A stretch of 64,000 nucleotides of DNA from Sandaracinus amylolyticus (GTDB lineage Bacteria > Myxococcota_A > Polyangia > Polyangiales > Sandaracinaceae), in NCBI RefSeq assembly GCF_000737325.1, contig NZ_CP011125.1:9858001-9922000 (forward strand), read 5' to 3'. Positions 42,564-51,558 of the stretch are shown piece by piece. The notes below the pieces were generated by a model that ran no database searches, had not been told where the DNA came from, and saw only the letters and a list, made by a program, of their open reading frames with translations. A program made the translations under genes and the position numbers. Position 1 is the first letter of the stretch, and each line of letters begins with the position of its first letter.

Positions 42564-42914
42564 TCAGGCGGCGCGGAGCGGCCCGTGATCGTCGCAGTGC
42601 GTGCCGTGCGGATGGTGCAGGTGACCGTCGACGAGATAGTCGGTGTGGTCGCCGTGCGGCACCGCTTCGTGACCGCACCCGGGCCCGTGGGCGTGGCCCT
42701 TCGCGTGGCCCGCGCACGCGTGGCCGGGCGTGCAGTCCGCGGGGTTCGTGCCGCCGATCGCGAGCTCGTGCTCCTCGACGCCGCCGTGCGCGCACTTGTG
42801 GTGCAGGTGACCGTCGTGGAGGTAGTCGGTGTGGCCCTCGTGCTGCACCGCGGTGTGACCGCAGCCGGCGCCGTGCTCGTGGCCTTCGTGATCGTCGTGG
42901 TGCTTGTGGGTCAT
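42564..42914 (-). CDS. His-rich metal-binding protein with internal duplication
   Basis: A 116-aa cytosolic protein with about one His in four residues. Two copies of one block are visible: GCGHTAVQHEGHTDYLHDGH (about residues 17-36) and GCGHEAVPHGDHTDYLVDGH (about 76-95), each followed by further His. It should bind several Zn, Ni or Cu ions as a buffer or chaperone. ATG 42914 overlaps the stop of the ArsR-type regulator by four bases, so it is co-translated with it. Confidence 0.82.
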   Translation of the reverse strand: MTHKHHDDHEGHEHGAGCGHTAVQHEGHTDYLHDGHLHHKCAHGGVEEHELAIGGTNPADCTPGHACAGHAKGHAHGPGCGHEAVPHGDHTDYLVDGHLHHPHGTHCDDHGPLRAA

Positions 42915-43366
42915 TCGTCCTCTTCTCCGGTGTGCGCGTGGGAGCGCGGCTCGAGCGCGTGCTCCAGCGCGCTCTGGATGAGATCGGCGACGTGCTGATC
43001 GGACAGCGCGTAGTAGATGTGCTTGCCCTCGCGACGACGGCTGACGAGCCCCTCGGTGCGCAAGAGACGCAGCCGCTGCGAGACCGTCGAGAGCCCCTCG
43101 CCCGACTCCGCCGCGAGCTCCGAGACGCAGAACTCGCCCTGCGAGAGACGCTCGAGCAGGCGGAGCCGCTCGGGGTCTCCGCACGCGCGGAAGAGCGCGG
43201 CCGCGCGCGCCAGCGCGAGCGTCCCGACGCTGCCGCGACGCGCAGGCGCGTCGTCGTGGCGGCACGTGGGCTTCTCGCCGGTGGGCGCGGCCTTCGTAGC
43301 CTTCGTGGTGGTGCGAGGAGCAGCAGTGCCCTTGCGGGCGGTCGCGACGCTCGATGACTTCACCAT
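42911..43366 (-). CDS. ArsR/SmtB-family metal-responsive repressor
   Basis: A 151-aa winged-helix regulator. After a 45-residue basic tail, the DNA-binding part shows RACGDPERLRLLERLSQGEF CVSEL and GEGLSTVSQRLRLLRTEGLV with recognition helix near 95-110, then RREGKHIYYALSDQHVADLI, typical of SmtB/ZiaR/CadC. C-terminal HAHTGEEDE and CRHDD near 37 could bind metal. It should repress its own operon and the divergent His-protein/permease genes and release them on metal binding. TACAAC lies 10 bases before ATG 43366, as a possible -10. Confidence 0.9.
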   Translation of the reverse strand: MVKSSSVATARKGTAAPRTTTKATKAAPTGEKPTCRHDDAPARRGSVGTLALARAAALFRACGDPERLRLLERLSQGEFCVSELAAESGEGLSTVSQRLRLLRTEGLVSRRREGKHIYYALSDQHVADLIQSALEHALEPRSHAHTGEEDE

Positions 43367-43457
43367 TCGTTGAAGTGTTGTACCGGCGTCCTACGCGGGC
43401 CGCAAGCAGCGGCTTCCTTGACCGTCGTCGCGGGCGCCGCCCATAACGACCCGGCCG

Positions 43458-43832
43458 ATGCCGCGTCCCTGGTTCCGCCTGGTGGCCAGCGCGCTGCTCG
43501 CGGTGTGCGCCACCGCGCAGCTCGGCGCGCTCGCGCACCTCGCGCTGGTGCGGCACGTCCACTGCGCGGAGCATGCGCGCGTCGAGCACGCGGACGATGC
43601 GCACGCAGCGCACGCGCACGTCGATCACGACGCGCTCTCGAGCCGCGACGATCACGCGCACGACGGCTGCGCGCTGGACGCGCTGCGCACCGTCGCGGCG
43701 ATCACGATCCACGAGGCGCCGTCACGCGTCGTCGCGTTCGACGTCTCGTCGCTCCACACCGCACCGCACGACACGCCGCGTCTCGCCGCGCGCGTCCTCG
43801 ATCACGCACCGAAGACCTCGCCGCCCGCCTGA
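43458..43832 (+). CDS. His-rich periplasmic protein
   Basis: A 124-aa protein with an N-terminal membrane segment or signal (FRLVASALLAVCATAQLGALAH) and a His/Asp-rich body (HVHCAEHARVEHADDAHAAH, HVDHDALSSRDDHAHDGC). It resembles DUF2946-like proteins found beside metal permeases. It probably captures metal in the periplasm. Divergent from the ArsR gene with a 91-bp intergenic region and followed 111 bp later by the permease. TAACGA ends 8 bases before ATG 43458. Confidence 0.75.
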   Translation: MPRPWFRLVASALLAVCATAQLGALAHLALVRHVHCAEHARVEHADDAHAAHAHVDHDALSSRDDHAHDGCALDALRTVAAITIHEAPSRVVAFDVSSLHTAPHDTPRLAARVLDHAPKTSPPA

Positions 43833-43943: not shown

Positions 43944-45752
43944 ATGTCGCTCGTCGTCTTCGTCTCGATCGTCTCGTGCGCGATCGGCGCGCTGATCGCG
44001 TCGCTCGCTCGACACCGCCCGGCGCTCGACGCGCCGGTGCGAACGTTCGCGATCGGCGCGGGCCTGGCGCTCGTGGGCACGCACCTCGTGCCCGAGTCGG
44101 CGCGCGGGATCGGCGCGTGGTCGCTGCTGCTGATGGGCGCGTCGCTCGCGGTGCCGTGGCTGGTGCGCGAGCGACGCAGCGCGGTGCTCGCGACCGAGCT
44201 CACCTACGCGGGCCTGCTCGGCTACCACGTGTTCGAGGCGGCGCGCATGGCGATCGCGGCGCGCAGCGCACCGGAGAGCGAGCTCGCGCTCGCGCTGATC
44301 GCGCACGCGATGCCGACCGCCGCGTTGCTCTTGGTGTCGACGTCGGACGCGATCGGACTGCGTGCCGCGGGGCTCGCGATCGCGTCGGTGCTCGGGGTGT
44401 CCTTCGCGCGCTTCGGCGGCGAGCAGGTCGCGTCGCTCACGCCGGCGTTCGATGCGATCGCGTCGGGGCTCCTGCTGTTCGTGATCGCGCGCGCGCTCGC
44501 GCCGGTGCACGCGCGCACGTCGGGGCGGCGGGTGAGCGAGCTGATCGCGCTCGCGGTCGGCGTGATCGTCACGCTGCTCGGCACCCGCGCACACTGGGAG
44601 CTCGCGCCCGACGCGACGCGCGCGCTCGAGCTGCGGCTCGTCGATGCGCTCGTCGACACGACGCTCGAGGCCGCGCCGATGCTGCTGCTCGGTCTCGCGC
44701 TCGGTGCGCTGGTGCAGGCGATCGGCGGGCGCTTCCCCGATCGCTGGATGCGCGAGACGAGCCCGCTGCGCGACGCGATGCGCGGCGCGGTCTACGGCGC
44801 GCCGCTTCCGGTGTGCGCGTGCGGGATCCTCCCCGTCGCGGAAGGGCTCGCGATGCGGCGCGCGAGCGCCGCGCTCGTGGTCGCGTTCCTGCTCGCGACG
44901 CCACAGGCCGGCGTCGAGGTGTTCGCGGTCATGGCGCGCTTCCTCGGCGTGCCGTTCGCGACCGCGCACCTCGTCGTCTCGCTCGCGACCAGCATCGTCG
45001 CCGCGATCGTGATCGCGCGCGTCGCGCGAAGGCCCGCGGCGATCACGATCCGCGGGCGCTCGTTCGAGCTCGTCGCGACGAGCTCGTGCTCGCACGACGA
45101 CTGCTGCGATCACGATCACGATCACGCGCCACAGGAGGGAACGCTGCTGACGCGATGGCGCGCCGCGTTCGACGAGCTCGCGCTGCACAACGCGCCGTGG
45201 GCGCTGGTCGGCATCGTGCTCGCCGCGCTCGTCGCGGAGCTCGTGCCCGCCGAGTCGGTCGCGGGGTTCGCGGCGATCGGCGCCGACATCCCGCTCATGG
45301 CCGTGCTCGCGATCCCCGCGTACGTGTGTCCCGCCTCGGCCGCGCCGCTCGGCGCGGTGTTGATCGCGAAGGGGCTCTCGCCCGGCGCGGTGCTCGTCGC
45401 GGTCACGCTCGGGCCCGCGACCAACGTCGCGACGCTCGCGTTCCTCCGTCGCCGCTACGGCACGCGCGCGGCGGTGCACGGCGTCGTCGCGCTGGTCGCA
45501 ACGGCATGGGCGGGGGCGCTCCTGGTGAACGCGCTCGTGCCGGTGGCGCTCCCGCCGCTCGCGACCGGAGAGGCCCACGAGCACGGGTGGTTGGCCTCGG
45601 CGTCGGGGCTCGCGCTGGCGCTCGTCGTGGTGCGCGCCTTGTGGATCGCCGGGCCCGCGGCGGTGCTTCCCGGGCTCGCGCCGGCGAGCAGGCCGTTCGG
45701 CCAGGATCGTCGAGATCCGCGAAACTTGCCGGAGACCCGCCGCGCTCGGTAG
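43944..45752 (+). CDS. metal permease: ZIP-like N-terminal part fused to SO_0444-type permease
   Basis: A 602-aa membrane protein from ATG 43944 (GGAGAGG about 8 bases upstream). The first 190 residues have five to six helices with THLVPESARG near 47, GYHVFEAA near 95 and AHAMPTA near 121, placed like metal-site helices of ZIP transporters. Residues 225-600 match the SO_0444/DUF318-type permease: GAPLPVCACGILPVAEGL near 285, a ATPQAGVEVFAVM helix, and a second half IPAYVCPASAAPLGAVLIAKG with ATNVATLAFL. A cytosolic or periplasmic loop, HDDCCDHDHDHAP near 384, is a metal sponge. Such proteins export Zn, Cu or similar ions. Confidence 0.85.
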   Translation: MSLVVFVSIVSCAIGALIASLARHRPALDAPVRTFAIGAGLALVGTHLVPESARGIGAWSLLLMGASLAVPWLVRERRSAVLATELTYAGLLGYHVFEAARMAIAARSAPESELALALIAHAMPTAALLLVSTSDAIGLRAAGLAIASVLGVSFARFGGEQVASLTPAFDAIASGLLLFVIARALAPVHARTSGRRVSELIALAVGVIVTLLGTRAHWELAPDATRALELRLVDALVDTTLEAAPMLLLGLALGALVQAIGGRFPDRWMRETSPLRDAMRGAVYGAPLPVCACGILPVAEGLAMRRASAALVVAFLLATPQAGVEVFAVMARFLGVPFATAHLVVSLATSIVAAIVIARVARRPAAITIRGRSFELVATSSCSHDDCCDHDHDHAPQEGTLLTRWRAAFDELALHNAPWALVGIVLAALVAELVPAESVAGFAAIGADIPLMAVLAIPAYVCPASAAPLGAVLIAKGLSPGAVLVAVTLGPATNVATLAFLRRRYGTRAAVHGVVALVATAWAGALLVNALVPVALPPLATGEAHEHGWLASASGLALALVVVRALWIAGPAAVLPGLAPASRPFGQDRRDPRNLPETRRAR

Positions 45753-46032: not shown

Positions 46033-47178
46033 ATGGAGCTGACGATCAGCAAGAGGAACTTCCTCCGAGGCCTCGCGCGGACGCACGGTGTCGCGGATCG
46101 GAAGAGCTCGATGCCGATCCTGTCGAACATCCTCCTCACGACGGAGGACACTGGCACGCTGCGCTTCGCTGCGACGGATCTCTATCTCGGTGTCGCGGCC
46201 ACCGCGCCCGCCGAGATCAAGAAGGGCGGCTCGATCGCGGTCGCAGCGCGGACGCTGTTCGACATCGTGAAGAACCTGCCCGACGGCGACGTGCAGTGGA
46301 CGGTCGGTCCCAACCACGCCGCCGAGATCCGCAGCGGCAAAGTGCGCTTCCGCATCCCGGGCATGCCGGGCGACGACTTCCCGCCGCTGCCCGCGCCGCG
46401 CGAGGTGGAGTTCTCGTCGATCGACGTCGACGTGCTCGCCGACCTGATCACGAAGACCTCGTACTCGATGTCGACCGACGATACGCGACCGCACCTCGCG
46501 GGCGCGCTCTTCGAGGGCGAGGGACGCGTGGTCCGCATGGTCACGACCGACGGCCACCGCCTCAGCAAGTGCGAGCACAAGCTGCGTGAAGGCGCCTCGA
46601 TGGTGAACTTCACGATGCTCGTGCCGAACAAGGGCATCGCGGAGCTCAAGCGCCTGCTCGAGGACGCGAAGGCGGACAAGCCCGCGAAGGGCGAAGAGGC
46701 GCAGCCGGTCACGGTCGGCGTCGCGACGCAGGGCGGCAACGCGTTCTTCCGGCGCGAGGGCATCCAGCTGTCCGTGAAGCTCGCGGACGAGCAGTTCCCG
46801 CCGTACGCGAAGGTCATCCCGCAGAACCAGGACAAGCGCGTGGTGTGCCCGCGCGCGTCGCTGGTCGAGTCGCTGCGCCGCATCTCGCTCGTCTCGAGCG
46901 ACAAGAGCGGCGGCGTGCGGCTGATGCTGCAGGAGGGCTCGCTGCGCGTGGTCAGCGAGAACCCCGACGTCGGCGAGGGCAGCGAGGAGCTCGACGTGGA
47001 CTACGCGGGTGACCCGCTGACCATCGGGTTCAACGCGAAGTACATCCAGGACGTGCTCGCGTCGCTGAGCGACGACGAGGTCGCGCTCGAGCTCTCGGGC
47101 GAGCTCGACCCGGGCGTGATCAAGCCGGCGAACGACGCGACGCTGTTCGTCGGCGTCGTGATGCCGATGCGCATCTGA
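46033..47178 (+). CDS. dnaN: DNA polymerase III beta sliding clamp
   Basis: The 381-aa clamp loads as a dimer round DNA and tethers polymerase III. It begins MELTISKRNFLRGLARTHGV with SMPILSNILLTT, the usual N-terminal domain. The domain boundaries (VRMVTTDGHRLSKCEHKL in domain two; YIQDVLASLSDDEVALELSG near the C terminus and the ending VVMPMRI) are all typical. Length is normal. Its stop codon overlaps the ATG of the CbrC-family gene by one base, so the two are coupled. The 280-bp upstream region may contain the replication origin; dnaA is not next to it. Confidence 0.97.
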   Translation: MELTISKRNFLRGLARTHGVADRKSSMPILSNILLTTEDTGTLRFAATDLYLGVAATAPAEIKKGGSIAVAARTLFDIVKNLPDGDVQWTVGPNHAAEIRSGKVRFRIPGMPGDDFPPLPAPREVEFSSIDVDVLADLITKTSYSMSTDDTRPHLAGALFEGEGRVVRMVTTDGHRLSKCEHKLREGASMVNFTMLVPNKGIAELKRLLEDAKADKPAKGEEAQPVTVGVATQGGNAFFRREGIQLSVKLADEQFPPYAKVIPQNQDKRVVCPRASLVESLRRISLVSSDKSGGVRLMLQEGSLRVVSENPDVGEGSEELDVDYAGDPLTIGFNAKYIQDVLASLSDDEVALELSGELDPGVIKPANDATLFVGVVMPMRI

Positions 47179-47965: not shown

Positions 47966-49060
47966 ATGGAGGCGCTGCGGTTCGAGCAGCTCTTTGCGCG
48001 GCAGTGGCGCAACCTCGCGCCGCTCGATCTCGCGCCGGGCGCGCGCTTCAACGTCATCTCGGGCGACAACGGGCAGGGCAAGAGCAACTTGCTCGAGGCG
48101 CTCTGCTACCTCGGGTCGCTCCAGAGCTTTCGGGGCGCGCCCGCCGAGGAGCTCGTCTCGCGCGACGCGGACAGCGCGGTGATCGCCGCGAAGGTGAGCG
48201 GGCCGCCCGCGCCCCACACGCTCAAGGTGCGCGTGCATCGCGGGGGCAAGGCGCGCGAGCTCGCGCTCGACGACAAGCGGCCGCGCTCGGTCGCGACGTG
48301 GCTCGGCGTGTGTCCGGTGGTGCTCTTCCATCCGGGCGACCTCGAGCTCGCGCAGGGCGGGCCCGACGCGCGGCGCGCGCTGCTCGACGCGATCCTGAGC
48401 GAGATGGATCCGAGCTACGCCGCGACGCTCGCGACCTACGGCAAGGCGCTGCGCTCGCGCAATCGCCTCTTGCGCGAAGAGATGCCGGACCGGCGTGCGA
48501 TCACGTCGTTCGATCCGATCGTCGCGAGCGCGGGCGCGGTGCTCGGTCGAGCGCGCGAGGAGCTGGTGCGCGAGATCGCGCCGGTCACGGTGCGCGTCGC
48601 GGGTGAGATCCTCGGCGGCGAGATCCCGCTCGAGGTGCGCTACGTGCCGCGGGTTCCGCCGAGCGAAGAGGCGATCCTCGAAGCGCTGGTGCGCTCGCTC
48701 GACAAGGATCTCGCGCGAGGGTTCACCGCCGAAGGGCCGCACGCGGACGAGCTCGCGCTCGAGGTGCACGCGCGCGGCGCGAAGCACCACGCGTCGCAGG
48801 GACAGCAGCGCACGCTCGTGCTCGCGCTGAAGGTCGCGGAGCTCGAGGTGCTCGCGAAGCGCATCGGTCGGGTGCCTCCGCTGCTCCTCGACGACGTGTC
48901 GAGCGAGCTCGACCGCACGCGCAACGAGCGTTTCTTCGCGCTGCTCGCGGAGATGGGTGGTCAAGTGTTCTTGACCACCACGCACCCCGAGCTGATCCGC
49001 CTCGCGGAGGGCAGGGTGGACTGGCACGTCGAAGCGGGTCGCGTGACGCGCGCAGTGTGA
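47966..49060 (+). CDS. recF: DNA replication and repair protein RecF
   Basis: A 364-aa SMC-like ATPase that loads RecA at gaps with RecO and RecR. Features in order: LFARQWRNLAPLDL, the Walker A FNVISGDNGQGKSNLLEAL near 30-48, ABC signature SQGQQRTLVLALKVAELEVL near 275, and Walker B PPLLLDDVSSELDRTRN near 305, then VFLTTTHPELI. Length and order match RecF. CATGAT ends 8 bases before ATG 47966. It is third in the dnaN-cbrC-recF run. Confidence 0.95.
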   Translation: MEALRFEQLFARQWRNLAPLDLAPGARFNVISGDNGQGKSNLLEALCYLGSLQSFRGAPAEELVSRDADSAVIAAKVSGPPAPHTLKVRVHRGGKARELALDDKRPRSVATWLGVCPVVLFHPGDLELAQGGPDARRALLDAILSEMDPSYAATLATYGKALRSRNRLLREEMPDRRAITSFDPIVASAGAVLGRAREELVREIAPVTVRVAGEILGGEIPLEVRYVPRVPPSEEAILEALVRSLDKDLARGFTAEGPHADELALEVHARGAKHHASQGQQRTLVLALKVAELEVLAKRIGRVPPLLLDDVSSELDRTRNERFFALLAEMGGQVFLTTTHPELIRLAEGRVDWHVEAGRVTRAV

Positions 49061-49902: not shown

Positions 49903-49953
49903 CGCGCGTGCGCTTGGCGGGCTGGGTGGGTGCCTCTACGCTTCGCGCCGCTC

Positions 49954-51558
49954 ATGCCGCCCGACACGAACCTCGGCTCGTTCCTCAAGAAGCTGCGCAC
50001 CCCCGAGACGCGCCTGAACACGCGGCGCGCGCCGGTGTCGCCTTCACCACGAGCACCGCACGCCGTCGTGATCGGCGCGGGGTTCGGCGGGCTCGCTGCG
50101 GCGATTCGGCTCCTGGTGCGCGGCTATCGCGTGACCGTGATCGATCGGCTCGATCAAGCCGGTGGTCGCGCGCGCGTGTTCCGCCAGGACGGGTTCGTGT
50201 TCGACGCCGGGCCCACGCTCATCACCGCGCCGTTCCTCTTCGAAGAGCTCTGGACGCTCGCGGGGCGTCGCATGGCCGACGACGTCACGTTCGTGCCGAT
50301 CGATCCGTTCTATCGGATCCGGTTCCACGACGGATCGCAGTTCGACTACACCGGCGATCGTGCGCGCATGAGGAGCGAGATCGCGCGCTTCTCGCCGCGC
50401 GACGTCGAGGGCTGGGAGAAGTTCCTCGAGCACAGCGAGCGCATCTATCGCGTCGGCTTCGAGGAGCTCGCGCACGCGCCGTTCTCGAGCCCGCTCGACA
50501 TGGCGCGCGTCGTCCCCGACATGGTGCGGCTCGAGAACTGGCGCACCGTGATCGGCCTCGTGAGCAAGTACATCGAGGACGAGAAGATGCGGCAGGTCTT
50601 CTCGTTCCATCCGCTGCTCGTCGGCGGCAATCCGTACTCGACGTCGTCCATCTACACGCTCATCGCGTTCCTCGAGCGCGAGTTCGGCGTGTGGTTCGCG
50701 ATGGGCGGCACCGGCGAGGTCGTGCGCGGGATGGTGTCGCTGATCACCGAGCTCGGCGGCACCGTGCGGCTCGGCGCGCAGGTCGACGAGATCCTCGTCG
50801 ACGACGGTCGCGCGCGCGGCGTGCGCCTCCGTGACGGCGAGGTGGTGCGCGCCGACGTCGTGGTGTCGAACGCCGACTCCGCGTGGACCTATCGCCACCT
50901 CGTGCGCCCCGAGCATCGACGCACGTGGAGCGACTTCCGTCTCGACAAGCTCACGCGCTACTCGATGAGCCTCTTCGTCTGGTACTTCGGGACGAACAAG
51001 AAGTACGACGACGTCGCGCACCACACGATCGTGCTCGGGCCGCGTTATCGCGAGCTGCTCGAGGACATCTTCGACAAGAAGGTGCTCGCCGACGACTTCT
51101 CGCTCTACCTGCACCGACCGACGTGCACCGATGCGTCGATGGCGCCCGAGGGGCACGACTGCTTCTACGTGCTCTCGCCGGTGCCGCACCTCGAGAGCGG
51201 CATCGAGTGGACCCCTCGGAAGGTCGAGCAATACCGGCGCGCGATCGCGCAGTCGCTCGGCGAGTCGATCCTGCCGGGCCTCGAGGAGCACGTCGTGAGC
51301 TCGCGCGTGCTCACGCCGCAGGGCTTCCTCGACGACTATCTGTCGGTGCACGGCGCGGCGTTCGGCATCGAGCCGGTGCTGCACCAGAGCGCCTACTTCC
51401 GCCCGCACAACGAGAGCGAGGACATCAGGGGGCTCTACCTCGTCGGCGCGGGCACACACCCTGGTGCGGGCATGCCCGGTGTGCTCTCGAGCGCGCGTGT
51501 GCTCGACACCGTCGTGCCGGATCCCGAGCGGCTCGACGCGTCCGTGAAGCGCGCCTGA
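49954..51558 (+). CDS. crtI: phytoene desaturase
   Basis: A 534-aa FAD-dependent carotenoid desaturase. FAD site HAVVIGAGFGGLAAAIRLLV near 37-56, VTVIDRLDQAGGRARVFRQD and FVFDAGPTLITAP are as in CrtI; the C-terminal GLYLVGAGTHPGAGMPGVLS is the diagnostic CrtI ending. It introduces double bonds into phytoene to give neurosporene or lycopene. ATG 49954 is chosen because an upstream GTG 49930 would be read through TACGCT (49937-49942), which looks like its -10. It is separated from crtB-crtT-crtU by a sugar ABC transporter on the other strand. Confidence 0.93.
   Translation: MPPDTNLGSFLKKLRTPETRLNTRRAPVSPSPRAPHAVVIGAGFGGLAAAIRLLVRGYRVTVIDRLDQAGGRARVFRQDGFVFDAGPTLITAPFLFEELWTLAGRRMADDVTFVPIDPFYRIRFHDGSQFDYTGDRARMRSEIARFSPRDVEGWEKFLEHSERIYRVGFEELAHAPFSSPLDMARVVPDMVRLENWRTVIGLVSKYIEDEKMRQVFSFHPLLVGGNPYSTSSIYTLIAFLEREFGVWFAMGGTGEVVRGMVSLITELGGTVRLGAQVDEILVDDGRARGVRLRDGEVVRADVVVSNADSAWTYRHLVRPEHRRTWSDFRLDKLTRYSMSLFVWYFGTNKKYDDVAHHTIVLGPRYRELLEDIFDKKVLADDFSLYLHRPTCTDASMAPEGHDCFYVLSPVPHLESGIEWTPRKVEQYRRAIAQSLGESILPGLEEHVVSSRVLTPQGFLDDYLSVHGAAFGIEPVLHQSAYFRPHNESEDIRGLYLVGAGTHPGAGMPGVLSSARVLDTVVPDPERLDASVKRA

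Follow-up and report, generated by a model that had tools for sequence, protein, structure and literature searches.

A ZIP-homologous domain in front of an SO_0444-type metal permease in Sandaracinus amylolyticus and other Myxococcota

ZIP proteins are treated as metal importers and SO_0444-type permeases as exporters. In BbZIP, the eight-helix ZIP of Bordetella bronchiseptica (PDB 5tsa and others), the transport site is M1 and not M2, and loss of M2 lowers transport only modestly, as given in the accessible text of PMC11549095. The accessible parts of two further papers describe ZIPs without M2 and a gating residue, BbZIP Ser106, whose counterpart in nearly all human ZIPs is His (PMC9530640), and place the contacts of the BbZIP dimer on TM3, TM7 and TM8 (PMC10256678). 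Shewanella is reported to require SO_0444 for growth when stressed by Zn or Cu, efflux being deduced from mutant fitness and complementation (accessible text of PMC3219624), and a family member in Nitratiruptor is reported to be induced by Cd and Cu (accessible text of PMC10092412). We analysed a window of 64,000 nucleotides from the chromosome of Sandaracinus amylolyticus, in which a domain of each kind lies in a single polypeptide. Our literature searches, whose scope did not extend to subscription papers, returned no description of this fusion among the matches listed.

The fusion gene (43,944–45,752, + strand) encodes 602 amino acids from an ATG start. The initial annotation had read the frame, the motifs HLVPE (residues 47–51), HVFE (95–98), AHAMP (120–124) and CAC, and their coordinates as we find them in sequence and translation. 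It had also assigned the C-terminal half to the SO_0444-type permeases, and this assignment holds: PF03773 (ArsP_1) covers residues 237–529 (44,652–45,530) with 98.2 bits, above the cut-off of 32.3, and the CAC motif (Cys291 and Cys293, residues 291–293; 44,814–44,822) and a PAYVC motif (residues 458–462; 45,315–45,329), both read from the sequence, are the CAC and PxYVC motifs of the described SO_0444 family of Cu/Zn efflux transporters. Unlike that family, the window protein carries an N-terminal ZIP-like domain, has no HMA/CopZ-like stretch at its C terminus and scores 181.2 bits with the NCBIfam SO_0444 Cu/Zn efflux equivalog (NF033936), below the cut-off of 300; other fused members scanned against this model score 183–203 bits. 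The His/Cys-rich loop noted earlier between the permease halves is present at about residues 380–396 (45,081–45,131) and, among the permeases examined, occurs only in the window protein and in that of the sister species. A profile search found one such permease in the whole genome, and a Pfam scan found a single ordinary ZIP that exceeds the cut-off. In plasmid records, there was one partial match to the permease and none to the ZIP-like domain.

The N-terminal half, residues 1–217 (43,944–44,594), had been described as ZIP-like, and a profile comparison with ZIPs had been named as what would decide the matter. The outcome depends on the level of comparison: alone, the window half matches no Pfam or NCBIfam model and reaches 1.7% in hhalign against a ZIP profile, whereas the family to which it belongs does match ZIPs. 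The link between the two was made by a plain single-sequence search and not by a profile containing the window half; this search gave matches in 16 of 56 related genomes, its own included, and those outside the sister species show 27–35% identity. When the window and sister genes are compared, the N half has a dN/dS of 0.237 over 229 codons and the C half one of 0.193 over 335 codons. Because the N half is found in these 16 genomes and has a dN/dS close to that of the permease (0.24 and 0.19), it is more than a chance sequence. Decay of the ZIP half in the window genus was also considered and was rejected on this dN/dS of 0.24 and on a branch ratio that is not extreme: on the window lineage, the ratio of the ZIP-half rate to the permease-half rate is 0.98 (rank 5 of 40, range 0.74–1.15), so that the ZIP half is not clearly the faster.

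Homology was assessed on 93 aligned domains, the window domain first, collected from the plain search and from a broader profile search, which gave matches in 123 of 377 phylum genomes. Firstly, Pfam Zip is matched by 61 of the 93 domains at E≤0.01, against one of 93 for each of the next four families. Secondly, the 93-domain profile, run against the PDB with E values up to 10, returned five sequences, all of them BbZIP (best E 1.2e-7), and the alignment spans profile positions 6–224 of 225. Thirdly, hhalign gave 98.1% over 221 columns between this family and six ZIPs, E. coli ZupT included, against 3.2% in a control comparison of the family with the permease half. Single proteins can pass as well. 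A fused relative (L131) exceeds both the Zip cut-off (37.4 bits; cut-off 35.1) and that of ArsP_1, and an unfused one (L130) reaches 42.7 bits with Zip against the same cut-off of 35.1; among nine fused proteins scanned whole, L131 lies over the Zip cut-off, five lie below it, and L141, L144 and the window protein have no match, the scores of some members differing slightly between our two scans. Positive charge alternates along the chain, with a mean of 1.9–2.7 Lys/Arg in loops 1–2, 3–4, 5–6 and 7–8 of the 93 domains and 0.2–0.3 in the other loops, a ZIP-like pattern that fits BbZIP.

Predicted structures point the same way. A model of the N-terminal domain of one relative (L051), built from a six-row alignment, has eight helices and a pLDDT of 82.7. 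Its seven best Foldseek matches are all BbZIP (best E 6.3e-4, TM 0.44–0.51), followed by Nramp at E 0.18; VIA gave Z of 10.0–11.7 for BbZIP and 8.2 for Nramp, values to be read against the Z of about 13 that helical models can reach without kinship. The full-length model of the window protein (pLDDT 54.8) also shows eight helices in its N half, at low confidence since pLDDT is mostly below 50 there, and a fold search of the PDB with this low-confidence model gave no match. As judged from these family-level comparisons (Pfam, PDB profile search, hhalign and the predicted fold of a relative), the ZIP reading of the N half is correct as a statement of homology.

We tallied site residues over 119 domains, the 93 and 26 found later, with BbZIP columns read from the profile–PDB alignment and residues named after the accessible text of PMC11549095. 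The family shares with BbZIP the eight-helix core, the TM4 His and acid columns and a TM7 His column; it differs in its fused permease, in an extra TM7 His, in the absence of M2 ligands and, mostly, of Glu211. The TM4 His is kept in 118 of 119 domains, the TM4 Asp/Glu and the TM5 His in all 119, and the two TM7 positions hold His in 111 and 110 domains; the M2 ligands Asn178, Asp208 and Glu240 are found in 1, 1 and 0 domains and the Glu211 column holds Glu in 19. Fused members that keep this Glu (L141, L144 and most of L172–L191) are nearer to ordinary ZIPs. All five residues of the tally (the TM4 pair, the TM5 His and the two TM7 His) are present in 104 domains, four in 13, three in the sister protein and two in the window protein; as the profiles used to collect the set came from members having the residues, losses may be under-sampled in these counts.

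The initial annotation had placed the metal residues of the window protein as in ZIP sites, and this placement is not supported. On TM4 (44,223–44,237), where the family reads His-x-x-x-Asp/Glu and BbZIP has His177 and Glu181, the window protein reads Tyr94-His95-x-x-Glu98. HVFE therefore supplies the acidic residue in its proper place, but its His lies one column beyond the canonical position, which is occupied by a Tyr found in no other of the 119 domains; BbZIP itself retains this His. The His of AHAMP, His121 on TM5 (44,304–44,306), does fall on a ZIP site column, BbZIP position 207, but Thr125 stands downstream in the Glu211 column. His47 of HLVPE aligns, in our reading of the alignment (in which the conserved Pro is shifted by one position), with Ser106 of BbZIP and is neither an M1 nor an M2 ligand. 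Lastly, TM7 carries Phe179 and Arg183 (44,478–44,492) at the two columns of the family His. The M1 columns (His177, Glu181, 207 and Glu211 in BbZIP) thus hold Tyr94, Glu98, His121 and Thr125, and the M2 columns (Asn178, Asp208 and Glu240) hold His95, Ala122 and Ser148; neither set is complete. Since Tyr94 replaces the TM4 His and both TM7 His are lost, an active importer half is doubtful in this protein.

Joining an importer-like to an exporter-like fold had been considered unusual, whereas the architecture recurs across the sampled Myxococcota. With E at most 1e-4, the 93-row profile has matches in 223 of the 377 phylum genomes; as ordinary ZIPs may be among the weak matches, this figure is an upper estimate of how widespread the family is. 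Matches to the permease profile occur in 188 of the 377. In hand-picked permeases, the ZIP-like domain stands in front of 20 of 20 long and 0 of 20 short proteins, and 6 of 6 further ones have it. Two narrow sequence patterns found five loci, all from Myxococcota by title. Classed by context, 43 of the 93 domains are joined to a permease that has one or more Cys motifs and 16 to a partner lacking the Cys motifs, while 29 are standalone and 5 are cut by contig ends. Every classed domain except those of the window and sister species keeps at least four of the five site residues, and this includes the standalone domains and those with Cys-motif-less partners. By hhalign, 9 of the 16 Cys-motif-less partners are recovered as permease remnants at 85% or more and 7 score low (0.3 to 60%); such partners occur at L053, L055, L058, L062, L072 and other loci, some being shortened remnants that keep the last part of the permease. 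Standalone ZIP-like proteins of about 220–340 amino acids with a full site are found at L003–L005, L007, L009, L013, L016 and L067–L076, where the available flanks contain no permease gene; at three further standalone loci (L112, L113 and L118), the neighbours examined or scanned include no metal genes.

We built a permease tree by a quick method. Its 66 fused proteins are 40 members of the first set that carry both Cys motifs, among them the window protein, and 26 others; 20 unfused proteins complete it. A single branch with an SH-aLRT of 100 parts the fused from the unfused proteins, and from these sequences the fusion looks like one old event in the sampled Myxococcota; the tree is unrooted and leaves the order of the two forms unpolarised. 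The unfused Myxococcota permeases (for example L161) share a homologous core with the fused ones, but are only about 380–450 amino acids long, lack the ZIP-like domain (20 of 20) and a His-rich tail, and end in an HMA/CopZ-like stretch in 18 of 20 cases, as against 0 of 66 fused proteins. This stretch was named from L161 alone, below the NCBIfam cut-offs, and the model used for counting derives from the tail of L161, itself one of the proteins counted; the stretch is seen at L161 (959–2,206) and in 17 other unfused permeases. The last 70 residues contain eight or more His in 50 of the 66 fused proteins and in none of the 20 unfused ones; the window protein has no His tail. A loop with at least six His plus Cys between the permease motifs is found in 2 of 65 fused proteins, those of the window and sister species, and in 0 of 20 unfused ones.

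The neighbouring genes suggest which metal is concerned. Divergent from the fusion gene lies a gene for an ArsR/SmtB metalloregulator (42,911–43,366, − strand; NF033788, 86.8 bits, cut-off 55) with the alpha-5 motif DxHx10HxxE, which is the alpha-5 zinc motif of SmtB, CzrA and NmtR according to the accessible text of PMC8960804. All five complete ArsR relatives that adjoin fusions, window and sister included, have the motif, against a background of 16 occurrences in 1,027,331 amino acids of open reading frames; relatives by L002, L052, L056 and L139 carry it, that at L139 with His at its end, and the copy at L042 is incomplete, being cut off. Because this divergent regulator bears the SmtB/CzrA zinc motif, zinc is most likely the substrate, a sequence-based assignment. 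The end of the ArsR gene is overlapped by a gene for a small His-rich protein (42,564–42,914, − strand; no Pfam or NCBIfam match over 42,576–42,914), and just 5' of the fusion gene lies one for another His-rich protein (43,458–43,832, + strand), with a hydrophobic N terminus that by eye may be a signal peptide, only sub-threshold family matches and, among the loci compared, relatives in the sister species only. His-rich proteins resembling those of the window adjoin L044, L085, L088 and L139; CDF and Fur genes also adjoin L044, and MerC adjoins L088. These neighbour counts are lower bounds, the flanks being short, and most loci are without such neighbours. An operator search found no inverted repeat of at least 8 in 43,340–43,480. 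Upstream of the ArsR gene, positions 43,346–43,395 form a well conserved block shared with the sister species, in which ACTTCA-N8-TGAAGT, seen by eye, spans the start codon and is a possible operator.

Taking together the computed domains and homologies, the recurrence of the architecture and the loss of most site residues in the window and sister proteins, we consider that the gene probably encodes a zinc-responsive exporter of the ArsP_1/SO_0444 type with an N-terminal, ZIP-descended eight-helix accessory module. The permease half would pump metal out. The ZIP-like half of most relatives has the His/Asp/His site and two TM7 His and, together with the His-rich tail, may capture or gate metal for the permease; in the unfused proteins, this task would fall to the HMA/CopZ-like stretch. 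The window protein would be weakened in this respect, and its new His/Cys loop, which lies within the permease, may now serve instead. A fuller history can be offered tentatively: the importer fold may have been recruited once, early in the sampled Myxococcota, as a loading or gating module for the exporter, serving where the HMA/CopZ-like module sits in unfused proteins, with a change of chemistry from Cys to His (zinc), before most of the site was lost in the window genus and the new loop took over. A recurrent fusion of apparently single origin would show an importer fold working inside an export protein, and it opens to concrete testing the question of whether ZIP folds can receive or gate metal. 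The complementary pattern, an HMA-like end in unfused proteins and a ZIP-like front with a His tail in fused ones, makes metal loading testable in a poorly studied family of exporters, and the window protein, its ZIP-like site mostly lost, amounts to a natural mutant.

Among other explanations, the ZIP-like half may now serve in the window species only as a membrane scaffold or dimerisation part that binds no metal. The tally agrees with this, two of five site residues being left in the window protein and three in the sister protein against at least four in the other 117 domains, and so does the dimerisation of BbZIP through TM3, TM7 and TM8 (accessible text of PMC10256678). However, a shifted site could be made up of His47, Glu51, His95, Glu98 and His121, which are still present, and the N half evolves at a dN/dS of 0.24; we regard this explanation as rather doubtful. 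A two-way metal valve, in which the ZIP-like half of the family imports and the permease half exports, the two being joined for homeostasis, seems to us unlikely. It would account for the His, Asp/Glu and His kept in the M1 columns of 118, 119 and 119 of 119 domains, and BbZIP, in which M1 transports and M2 loss has only a modest effect (accessible text of PMC11549095), speaks for it. The standalone copies also retain the site. As they and the relatives with Cys-motif-less partners keep it, a role purely as a permease helper does not explain them; the ZIP-like domain would have work of its own there, which keeps the valve in play. Against it stand the Glu211 column, with Glu in only 19 of 119 domains, the near-total absence of Asn178, Asp208 and Glu240 (1, 1 and 0 of 119), the Tyr that replaces the TM4 His in the window protein, and the futility of co-induced import and export in a single chain. 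That the N half is merely an SO_0444 extension confined to one lineage, its ZIP-like motifs being due to chance, as the missing ZIP match of the window sequence alone might suggest, is very improbable, being contradicted by near-full-length matches at family level in Pfam (61 of 93 domains against one of 93 for each next family), in the PDB (BbZIP only), in hhalign (98.1% against 3.2% for the control) and in Foldseek (best seven all BbZIP).

Directly 3' of the fusion gene lie dnaN (46,033–47,178, + strand) and recF (47,966–49,060, + strand). A chromosome origin beside the fusion gene was considered and rejected: the window contains two near-matches to the DnaA box, a number reached by 15 of 100 shuffles. 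Further downstream, 49,930–51,558 (+ strand) encodes a phytoene desaturase family protein (TIGR02734, 609.9 bits).
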